Source of the DNA: Candidatus Parcubacteria bacterium | GTDB taxonomy: Bacteria; Patescibacteriota; Patescibacteriia; CAIXNZ01 | Direction: 5' to 3' | DNA length: 36,334 nt | Assembly (NCBI GenBank): GCA_026395685.1 | Contig: JAPLYG010000017.1 | Location: forward strand, 1-36,334 | Shown here: in pieces, positions 2,272-4,889 of the stretch | How the letters are laid out: the number at the start of each line of letters is the position of its first letter | Numbering within the stretch: the first letter of the stretch is position 1 | Position numbers and translations under genes: made by a program | Notes under the pieces: generated by a model | Database searches by the model: none | Told to the model about the DNA's origin: nothing | The model's input: the letters and a program-made list of their open reading frames with translations, nothing else

Positions 2272-2292
2272 ACACAAAGGAGGTAGATGAAG

Positions 2293-3003
2293 ATGGTTAG
2301 AGTGATTATCATGGCTTATGATTCCTATCGTGAGAGCGAGCGGCGGGGGCTTAGTCCTGAGGAACATGTAGGTAATCGTCATTTTGTTGGCATTCGTTAT
2401 TTTGGAAAAATAGATTGGCACTGGTTATCTAGGTCTATTAATTCTACTCTAAAAGAGTACCATTTGCTAACTAATGAAGGAGAATGTGGGAACGGTGGTA
2501 GTCCGTATTGGGCAGATTTAAGAGATGCTTGGATTGAGGGTAATGATCTTTGCCTGCTATGGCGTAAACTCGGTCCATCAGGAGTAAAAAGGACAAAACA
2601 GGGAGAATTGGATAAGCATGGACGTTATGGGATTACTCGATATAATCCGCCAAGATATTATTATTACGAGGAAGAAGTGTCCGCTTACCATAATTATATT
2701 ATTACGATTAGCTTGTCATCATTTTCTTGGGATTGTAAATTTTTTTGTCTGTCAAAAACTGAGGATGAAGCTTTAATAGGCCACCATTTAAAGGCTGATA
2801 AAGCAATGCATTTTCCTTTAGATAAGGTGCCTTTTTCAAAAAATTTGCGACAGTCTAAGGATACTGAATTTGCTATGGGTCTAGGAATCATAATGCCTGT
2901 TACTTTAAAGACGCCTAGATATCGGGAATATAATATGTCTGAGGAATTGTTTAGTAATTTAGTTTTGTTTTGTCAAAACAAAGCGCAGCTTACCTCAATT
3001 TAA
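2293..3003 (+). CDS. hypothetical protein, paralog B of the 727..1446 protein
   Basis: ORF 2287..3003; ATG 2293 has the better spacing from AAAGGAGG; paralogous to 727..1446. Confidence 0.85.
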   Translation: MVRVIIMAYDSYRESERRGLSPEEHVGNRHFVGIRYFGKIDWHWLSRSINSTLKEYHLLTNEGECGNGGSPYWADLRDAWIEGNDLCLLWRKLGPSGVKRTKQGELDKHGRYGITRYNPPRYYYYEEEVSAYHNYIITISLSSFSWDCKFFCLSKTEDEALIGHHLKADKAMHFPLDKVPFSKNLRQSKDTEFAMGLGIIMPVTLKTPRYREYNMSEELFSNLVLFCQNKAQLTSI

Positions 3004-3451: not shown

Positions 3452-3486
3452 ATACCCGGAGATGTTATTCTCCGGGTATTCTTTTT
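3452..3486 (+). terminator. intrinsic terminator
   Basis: ATACCCGGAGATGTTATTCTCCGGGTATTCTTTTT. Confidence 0.85.
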
Positions 3487-3551
3487 ATTAAGAACTTGAC
3501 TTTTCCACTTTTTGCTTGACAAAATACGATGTTATGATAAATTTATTACAT

Positions 3552-3632
3552 ATGAATAACATTAAACAAGCTTTATTTGGATATTACTTTTTTAGCGGAT
3601 TTTATGAGCCAGCTTGTTTGAATATGTTTTAA
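3552..3632 (+). CDS. putative aromatic-rich leader peptide MNNIKQALFGYYFFSGFYEPACLNMF
   Basis: Short ORF ATG 3552 to TAA 3630-3632; Phe/Tyr cluster (F-G-YYFF-SG-FY) just before a set of mutually exclusive RNA pairings and a terminator; extended -10 TGTTATGAT at 3531-3539. Confidence 0.6.
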   Translation: MNNIKQALFGYYFFSGFYEPACLNMF

Positions 3633-3697
3633 AATAATTTTCTAGATTATTCAAATACAAGGAGCTGGCCAAGTAGGTCAGCTCTTTAAGTTTTGTT
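3564..3697 (+). promoter_or_regulatory. transcription attenuator (alternative hairpins and terminator)
   Basis: Segment 1 AAACAAGCT 3564-3572 pairs with segment 2 AGCTTGTTT; segment 2 GCCAGCTTGTTTGAATA 3608-3624 pairs with segment 3 TATTCAAAtaCAAGgaGCTGGC 3648-3669; segment 3 GAGCTGGCC 3662-3670 pairs with segment 4 GGTCAGCTC 3676-3684, followed by TTTAAGTTTTGTT. Confidence 0.7.
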
Positions 3698-3749
3698 AAC
3701 ACAAAGACATCCTCCGCAAAATGCTACGGAGGAGAAGGAGGGAAACAAA

Positions 3750-4019
3750 ATGCGGAAAAAGGATGTTAAGGGAGGGAAAGAGAAAAAGCTTCAGCCATCG
3801 GATTCAGCAGAAGCTCTAGAAAGCAGATGGTTGGTTGGCAAATGCCTACTTAACGGAGGAAACAACTTGAGGCCGGATTTACAAGCACTTTTGGACTCTT
3901 TGGCCGTAGAAGTCACCAGAATCGTGACAAATCGTAATACTGAGCCCATGGTGTGTATTAAAGGCCCCAAGGCGACTGTGAATGCCCTGGTAGCAATTGC
4001 TAAGGGTAAAGTGGTCTAA
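3750..4019 (+). CDS. hypothetical 89-aa protein downstream of attenuator
   Basis: ORF with ATG 3750 after AAGGAGGG; no family recognised. Confidence 0.7.
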   Translation: MRKKDVKGGKEKKLQPSDSAEALESRWLVGKCLLNGGNNLRPDLQALLDSLAVEVTRIVTNRNTEPMVCIKGPKATVNALVAIAKGKVV

Positions 4020-4030
4020 ATATGAAATAA

Positions 4031-4062
4031 AGGGTATTCTCAGTTGAGATTACCCTTTTTCC
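4031..4062 (+). terminator. intrinsic terminator
   Basis: AGGGTATTCTCAGTTGAGATTACCCTTTTT. Confidence 0.8.
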
Positions 4063-4067
4063 TTGAC

Positions 4068-4123
4068 CATCCTTCGCTTTTGCCGCCGCTAAAGTTATGG
4101 CGGACAGGAAAGCTTCGGATGGT
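4068..4123. repeat. palindromic dispersed repeat (CCATCC...GGATGG family)
   Basis: CCATCCTTCGCTTTTGCCGCCGCTAAAGTTATGGCGGACAGGAAAGCTTCGGATGG; related hairpins at 384-410, 3709-3733 and 9762-9787. Confidence 0.65.
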
Positions 4124-4124
4124 A

Positions 4125-4152
4125 TTGACATATTTTTTACTTCTGCTATACT
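4125..4152 (+). promoter_or_regulatory. sigma70-type promoter for rplJ-rplL
   Basis: TTGACA 4125-4130, N16, TATACT 4147-4152. Confidence 0.75.
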
Positions 4153-4156
4153 ATAT

Positions 4157-4268
4157 TTAACCGCAGACAATAGGTATTCCGCAAGGATATAAAACCTATC
4201 GAGGTTAAAGTCATTCTTCGACTATGTTTAGGATGACATTGAATTCTGCGGCGAAACGCAGATTTTTT
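4157..4268 (+). ncRNA. ribosomal protein L10 leader with attenuator terminator
   Basis: AACCGCAGACAATAGGTATTCCGCAAGGATATAAAACCTATCGAGGTTAA resembles the known L10 leader; CTGCGgcgaaaCGCAGATTTTTT terminator follows, and its arm TCTGCGG is the exact complement of leader CCGCAGA. Confidence 0.8.
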
Positions 4269-4364
4269 AATTTATTAATGATAACTTAACCACTGATGTA
4301 ATTCACTGATGCCACGGATTTGATATCCGTGTAATCTGTGAGAGAAAATCCGTGGTTCATACCT

Positions 4365-4889
4365 ATGCCAAAATCAAGATCAGAAAAAGAGCAAGCTTTG
4401 AAAGATTTAGCTGACTTGCTTAAAGATTTTAAAAGTGTAATCTTTGTTGATTATAAAGGTTTAAAAGTTAAAGAAGCAGCAGAGATAAAGAGTATTTGTA
4501 AAAAACAAAAAGCTCAATACATTGTTGCCAAAAAAACATTAATTAAATTGGCCTTGGAAAAGCAGGGCTTAAAGGATATTGATGTGAAAAATATGGATGG
4601 TAATTTGGCAATGATTATTGGTTTGTAAGATGAAGTGGCGCCTGCTAAGATTGCAGCCAATTTTGCCAAAGACCATAAAGCCTTAAAAATGTTGGGTGGC
4701 ATTATGGAAGGTAATTTATTAAATTTAGATCAGGTAACGGTTTTGTCTAAAATCCCGTCTAAACCGGAACTTTTAGGACAATTAGTGCGTACTATTAATG
4801 CACCTGTTTCCGGCTTTGTTAATGTTTTAGCAGGTAACATTCGCGGCTTATTAAATGTGCTGAATAGTCTTAAGGATTCTAAAGTTTAA
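4365..4889 (+). pseudogene. rplJ: 50S ribosomal protein L10 interrupted by an in-frame TAA at 4626-4628
   Basis: MPKSRSEKEQALKDLADLLKDFKSVIFVDYKGLK...NLAMIIGL*DEVAPAKIAANFAKDHKALKMLGGIMEGN...; both halves are L10-like and in the same frame across the stop. Confidence 0.85.

Follow-up and report, generated by a model that had tools for sequence, protein, structure and literature searches.

Within the window, by which we mean the whole 36,334-nt stretch of contig JAPLYG010000017.1 (Candidatus Parcubacteria bacterium, assembly GCA_026395685.1) that was analysed, a small orphan gene, here called gene B, is preceded by a predicted promoter, a short ORF rich in Phe and Tyr codons and a set of mutually exclusive RNA pairings ending in a terminator (Table 1). 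Further upstream, two tandem SAM riboswitches (330-452 and 531-634) precede a 257-aa orphan gene (673-1446), which has a 49%-identical paralog two genes downstream (2287-3003); this orphan and its paralog gave no Pfam match above cut-off.

Table 1 Features of the leader region and its neighbours, numbered from the first letter of the window.
Feature	Position (strand)	Sequence	Remarks
Upstream terminator	3452-3479		5' of the promoter-leader unit
Promoter, predicted	3516-3543 (+)		TTGACA 3516-3521, 16 nt, TAAATT 3538-3543; TGA directly 5' of the -10
Leader peptide ORF	3552-3632 (+)	MNNIKQALFGYYFFSGFYEPACLNMF	26 codons; stop TAA 3630-3632; no Shine-Dalgarno
Control codons, putative	3576-3593 (+)		Phe9 3576-3578; Tyr11 Tyr12 Phe13 Phe14 3582-3593
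Segment 1	3564-3572; 3564-3575 (+)	AAACAAGCT; AAACAAGCTTTA	AAACAAGCTTGG in relatives
Segment 2	3609-3619; 3609-3624 (+)	CCAGCTTGTTT; CCAGCTTGTTTGAATA	partner is 1 or 3
Segment 3	3650-3670 (+)	TTCAAATACAAGGAGCTGGCC	partner is 2 (antiterminator) or 4 (terminator)
Segment 4 and T-rich tail	3676-3697 (+)	GGTCAGCTCTTT; tail AAGTTTTGTT	terminator stem: 3659-3670 pairs with 3676-3687
Hairpin	3710-3733 (+; listed on - strand)	TCCTCCGC..GCTACGGAGGA	just 5' of Shine-Dalgarno AAGGAGGG, 3735-3742
Gene B (target)	3750-4019 (+)		89-aa orphan
Terminator-like hairpin	4029-4060 (+)		3' of gene B; -15.9 kcal/mol for 4020-4066; divides gene B from rplJL
rplJL promoter and Rfam L10 leader	4125-4277 (+)		promoter 4125-4152, L10 leader 4143-4277; neighbour outside the attenuated unit

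The aromatic-rich ORF lies exactly where the initial annotation had placed it. Its promoter was positioned by aligning five relatives, which gave TTGACA-16-TATAAT/TAAAAT/TAAATT with 7-8 nt to the ATG; in the window the leader ATG lies 8 nt past TAAATT, and transcription is predicted to start within about 3 nt of it. This alignment displaces the extended -10 (TGTTATGAT) proposed at first, while the conserved spacing still favours, for a predicted start, the leaderless transcript that had been proposed with it, and the leader is probably read from such a transcript with TAAATT as the -10. The mutually exclusive pairings and the terminator claimed from the first reading also stand, with segment 2 moved from 3612-3620 to 3609-3619 and segments 3 and 4 shifted by a few bases; the 3:4 hairpin is present, but the T-tail claimed for it is a weak, broken-up U-tract (CUCUUUAAGUUUUG).

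Since gene B is followed by a terminator-like hairpin, and rplJL is served by a promoter and L10 leader of its own, the unit under the window attenuator is probably gene B alone. Within the neighbouring rplJ (ribosomal protein L10, 4365-4889) there is an in-frame TAA at 4626-4628, where the relatives in L007, L003 and L006 encode Glu; this may be an artefact of assembly or sequencing, or else a genuine nonsense mutation in a gene that is normally essential. Palindromes of the form CC(T/A)TCC(T/C)(T/A/C)CGC..GC(T)(A/T)CGGA(G/T)GG occur at 3710-3733 and 4068-4120 of the window, at 1327 of L002 and at 1292 of L003; they sit just 5' of Shine-Dalgarno sites or promoters and possibly form a small repeat family. 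Two relatives carry hairpins resembling that at 3710-3733, there 5' of a second small gene, gene A (see below).

To gauge the chance level, we scanned for short ORFs carrying five or more F/Y/W in a seven-codon stretch. The window holds three, one of which has an adjacent promoter and terminator, and 60 first-order Markov resamplings of the window (4.36 million strand-bases) yielded 140, with a promoter at none of them, a terminator at one and both at none; the combination of promoter, aromatic leader and terminator exceeds chance. Folding of 3545-3700, a check suggested by the initial annotation, gave a minimum free energy of -34.5 kcal/mol (z = -2.56), with 1:2 plus 3:4 as the predicted fold of the full free RNA, and helix 2:3 by itself (3609-3670) came to -16.7 kcal/mol (z = -3.25).

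Searches with gene B, with DNA and with a covariance model located the element in five of nine family genomes, at six loci: the window, G001 (one copy each on C66 and C28), G005, G006 and G008, the records of the four relatives being MAGs labelled Ca. Buchananbacteria, Parcubacteria, Uhrbacteria and Falkowbacteria, which places the family within Patescibacteria. Alongside the window's MNNIKQALFGYYFFSGFYEPACLNMF, the leaders read MNIIKQVWFTYFFFSGLPKPACLNV, MNMTKQVWFTYFFFSGLPKPACLNV, MNIRKQVWFTFYFFTDSKRPACLNMF, MKMIKQAWYSFYFFTDLKRPACLSVFK and MNKMKKQAWFNYYFFSGQKWPACLSIVN. Every locus keeps the TTGACA-16-(-10)-7/8 nt-ATG arrangement, the leader reading frame, the aromatic cluster and a stop codon a few codons past segment 2. 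A comparison of leader peptides at gene B homologues, likewise suggested at the outset, therefore found the aromatic ORF kept alongside the pairings in 6/6 copies, and the patterns named beforehand as speaking against attenuation, namely pairings without an aromatic ORF or missing pairings, occur in none of the six. Across these copies, 97.8% of cells are paired for 1:2 and 3:4, against 23-57% in slid controls, and 97.6% for 2:3, against 2-55%. Because covariation is scant among six related sequences, with one compensatory change, the case for the pairings comes from conservation and energy; the window copy has lost two pairs of helix 1:2.

A codon table of the six copies separates two sorts of constraint on the leader. 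Its KQ (AAA CAA) and PAC (CCA GCT TGT) codons, which lie in segments 1 and 2, are for that reason invariant even in third position, and codons 2-4, 10 and 17-19 drift. At positions 9 and 11-14 every leader has Phe or Tyr, the two residues swapping at 9, 11 and 12, and this F/Y-only exchange is, at the level of the aligned leaders, the pattern expected of control codons. A Trp codon is found in five of the six leaders and has been lost from the window copy; its presence in the family is partly explained by RNA pairing (TGG:CCA). Since five of six leaders have this codon, the sensed set, which the initial annotation had given as Phe and Tyr, is probably all aromatics: the cluster on which the earlier proposal rested is present, and what is sensed is most likely Phe and Tyr here and Trp too in the relatives.

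We then modelled the ribosome by masking a footprint of our choosing that extends 13 nt 5' of the P site and 10 nt 3' of the A site. With the ribosome masked at each aromatic codon of the window, the transcript through segment 3 folds as 2:3; with a stall at any of the aromatic codons 8-15, 2:3 forms with P of about 1 in five of the six copies, and with the ribosome masked at the stop codon 3:4 forms in five of six, the window included. The exception is G005, where a codon-14 stall and the stop-codon case lead, with the footprint used, to the wrong helix. In the window, the control codons let a stalled ribosome cover segment 1 and not segment 2, while a finishing ribosome covers segment 2, and the geometry put forward in the initial annotation (a stall at YYFF giving 2:3, a ribosome at the stop giving 3:4) comes out cleanly. 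An untranslated transcript ending after segment 3 favours 2:3 in five copies, and the full RNA returns to 1:2 plus 3:4. We treat the masked-fold results as supportive only, because they are equilibrium calculations applied to a kinetic device.

Related leaders were found elsewhere in Patescibacteria. With model R1, built only from the six family copies, matches with E within 0.002-0.009 included L043, where the leader MIIQKSNFIFYFYFFSRP stands before a 311-aa DAHP synthase (PF00793, E 4e-6) and aroB; L035, where the leader MKLSHNTIKFFFNFYFTDWKGQRFRLSR (..IKFFFNFYFTDW..) is followed by a 92-aa orphan and then a DAHP synthase; and, in another class, L197, where MQNLINKIWFSFYFYTDY precedes a chorismate mutase-prephenate dehydratase, pheA (PF01817, PF00800). 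A match with E of 4e-5 (L033) has the leader ..IAFFSFYFTGSIRPVLHI before a 52-aa ORF. R1 matches with E > 0.001 are mostly plain terminators, and since R1 E-values are rough, reading frame, promoter and gene context were the grounds for accepting the divergent leaders. Independently of R1, an aromatic leader with a terminator was found at 12 of the 28 DAHP synthase loci of the class (a count that leaves out L114, on the wrong strand), the one closest to the window being L118 (MRKVALNKQFFGFYFFTDPVGSAACHTR). Most DAHP-locus leaders have TTGAC(A/C)-16/17-TANNNT directly 5' of the ATG, and the aro leaders have 4-10 nt between -10 and ATG. No aromatic ORF with a promoter or terminator turned up at 51 control loci (10 pheS, 41 unrelated) or in 8-fold resampled DAHP loci; at pheS loci of the family, no aromatic leader with a promoter or terminator was seen.

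The DAHP synthase and pheA leaders share with the window the promoter-ATG spacing, a cluster often followed by [ST][GD], and the terminator; unlike the window, their target is the aromatic pathway and their segments 1 and 2 differ in sequence. Judging by gene context, an aromatic attenuator of the window's kind serves the aromatic pathway in this class, and it is because of the R1 matches and the DAHP-locus leaders that we assign the window switch to this kind. Within the family, the cluster is always followed at codons 15-16 (window 3594-3599) by Ser-Gly or Thr-Asp (AGC GGA or ACT GAC), a pair that aro leaders often carry as well; by eye, the DNA of these codons shows some complementarity to segment 4 (GGTCAGT/GGTCAGCT), perhaps the trace of an older segment 1.

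Elsewhere in the class, other families have aromatic leaders before differing small orphans, at L046 (664-1159), L053 (- strand), L167, L169, L173 and L174, which suggests that the window case is not a single accident. Several of these orphans are Cys-rich and none is an aromatic enzyme; that of L169 has a near-threshold Fe-S motif (PF04060), and the products at L046, L053, L167, L169 and L173 (L174 not included) share no common Pfam family. Loose pattern scans for leaders returned mostly chance matches and serve as leads only.

At five of the six loci the element is followed by gene A (42-53 aa, MNRKQRRKLKR..) and then gene B, and in the window by B only. The small genes lie just 5' of rplJ in the window, G001 (C66), G005 and G006, and not at rplJ in G008; the C28 contig of G001 ends inside B. 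A search of 197 class genomes found neither gene beyond the family. In keeping with the initial annotation, which saw no aromatic amino acid gene in the target, gene B has no Pfam or NCBIfam match, and a PDB sequence search gave nothing of weight. An AlphaFold2 model has a β-α-β-β-α fold (pLDDT 77.7) for which Foldseek found no match in the PDB below E = 0.09, KH domains ranking first. Gene B was also compared with the ferredoxin-like N-terminal domain of DAHP synthase as a possible stand-alone relative, and the idea was rejected (hhalign probability 0.5%).

Neither type I DAHP synthase nor chorismate synthase was found in any of the nine family genomes, eight of which have completeness of 90% or more and contamination of 5% or less, and the controls were detected. 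The source genome thus appears to be without the shikimate pathway, and the organism is probably unable to make Phe, Tyr and Trp. Because it probably cannot make them, the window attenuator would report the outside supply of aromatic amino acids, and the small proteins perhaps serve in scavenging or in coping with aromatic starvation.

Taken together, the element is very probably a ribosome-mediated transcription attenuator that senses a shortage of charged aromatic tRNAs, an interpretation in which the sequence supports the leader, the promoter geometry, the pairings, their conservation and the kinship to aro-gene and pheA leaders. From these we infer stalling, readthrough, leaderless initiation and a function for the small proteins. 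Speaking against the reading are the weak U-tract and the lost Trp codon and 1:2 pairs of the window copy, the scant covariation, the wrong helices in G005, and target genes with no known tie to aromatic amino acids. Transcription would start at or beside the leader ATG, and a ribosome would load at a 5' end that is leaderless. If aromatic amino acids are in ample supply, it would reach the stop codon and cover segment 2, letting 3:4 terminate; with no translation, 1:2 would pair and 3:4 would again terminate. When Phe or Tyr is short, the ribosome would stall at codons 9-14, covering segment 1 and leaving segment 2 free; 2:3 would form while segment 4 is still to be transcribed, and the polymerase would continue into the small gene or genes. 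Aromatic shortage thus appears to switch on small orphan genes in an apparent auxotroph.

Of the other explanations weighed, the least improbable, though still unlikely, is that the attenuator is a relic of a lost aro operon that drives whatever gene follows, with no selected function. The family has neither DAHP nor chorismate synthase, the target is an orphan, and gene A and the Trp codon have disappeared from the window copy, whose U-tract is poor, all of which would fit a relic. However, four genera retain the aromatic codons, the pairings and the promoter alongside gene A, gene B or both, and other lineages also put such leaders before other small orphan genes; because of this conservation and these orphan-gene leaders, we consider that at least within the family the function has been retained. 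It is less probable still that the leader ORF is a functional micropeptide, or that the terminated leader RNA acts in trans, with attenuation secondary. The leader peptide is conserved across genera, and trans roles are documented for both RNA and peptide of the Sinorhizobium meliloti trpL attenuator (PMC7298713), but the conserved residues coincide with the RNA segments and control codons while the remaining residues drift, and such roles are compatible with attenuation without replacing it.

Nascent-chain arrest of the TnaC type, in which the peptide (W8..P20) would sense free tryptophan or another small molecule in the ribosome tunnel and arrest, not codon starvation, would position the ribosome, is given equally little weight. 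TnaC has W12 and P24, 12 residues apart, the same gap as between W8 and P20, and the PACL stretch is invariant in the family leaders. Yet the window copy has no Trp, RNA pairing accounts for both Trp-Pro and PACL (TGG:CCA; identical third bases), F and Y swap freely at the aromatic positions, and the aro-gene leaders resemble the family leaders only in the aromatic cluster, often with [ST][GD], and not in PACL. A ligand-binding riboswitch or T-box with an accidental short ORF is barely credible: the strong folding of 3545-3700 would suit it, but no Rfam covariance model matched 3531-3697 at gathering thresholds, although the SAM and L10 leaders nearby were detected, the sole indel among the leader N-termini is a multiple of three and keeps the frame, and aro genes and pheA have the aromatic cluster as well.

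Attenuation itself is a known mechanism. The aroF leader of Corynebacterium glutamicum (AroR) is a short peptide with Phe-Tyr-Phe before a DAHP synthase (PMC4046766), and the window likewise has a short leader peptide with aromatic codons, a likeness drawn without demonstrated sequence homology, in a different phylum, with a small orphan target and in a genome without DAHP synthase. The C. glutamicum ilvBNC leader peptide is reportedly made without a ribosome-binding site, according to work cited in PMC4046766. As is generally known, and as described in works cited in PMC1262725, pheA (PheL) and pheST (PheM) of Escherichia coli and other gamma-proteobacteria have, like the window, a Phe-rich leader, 1:2/2:3/3:4 pairings and an intrinsic terminator; unlike it, their leaders follow a Shine-Dalgarno sequence and their targets serve Phe synthesis or charging. 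In S. meliloti the trpL transcript begins at the leader ATG and is leaderless (PMC7298713), as is predicted for the window, but that attenuator senses Trp only and controls trp genes. A literature search combining Patescibacteria or the Candidate Phyla Radiation with attenuation or leader peptides, in which subscription papers were thinly covered, returned none among the matches listed. There is weak evidence of novelty, then, for an attenuator in Patescibacteria and for an aromatic-starvation switch that drives orphan genes in apparent auxotrophs.

Little work has been done on gene regulation in Patescibacteria, and a role has yet to be assigned to many of their small genes. We raise as a tentative possibility that, in apparently auxotrophic members, leaderless aromatic attenuators act as starvation sensors, and that former biosynthetic attenuators have given rise to a stress regulon of small lineage-specific proteins (A and B here, other orphans of 50-90 aa in the rest of the class) that aid amino acid uptake from a host or community. 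Model R1 and the promoter-leader-terminator signature can be used phylum-wide to list genes under aromatic-starvation control, and for orphan genes of this sort the attenuator names the signal, lack of Phe, Tyr or Trp, and so provides a testable hypothesis on their function.
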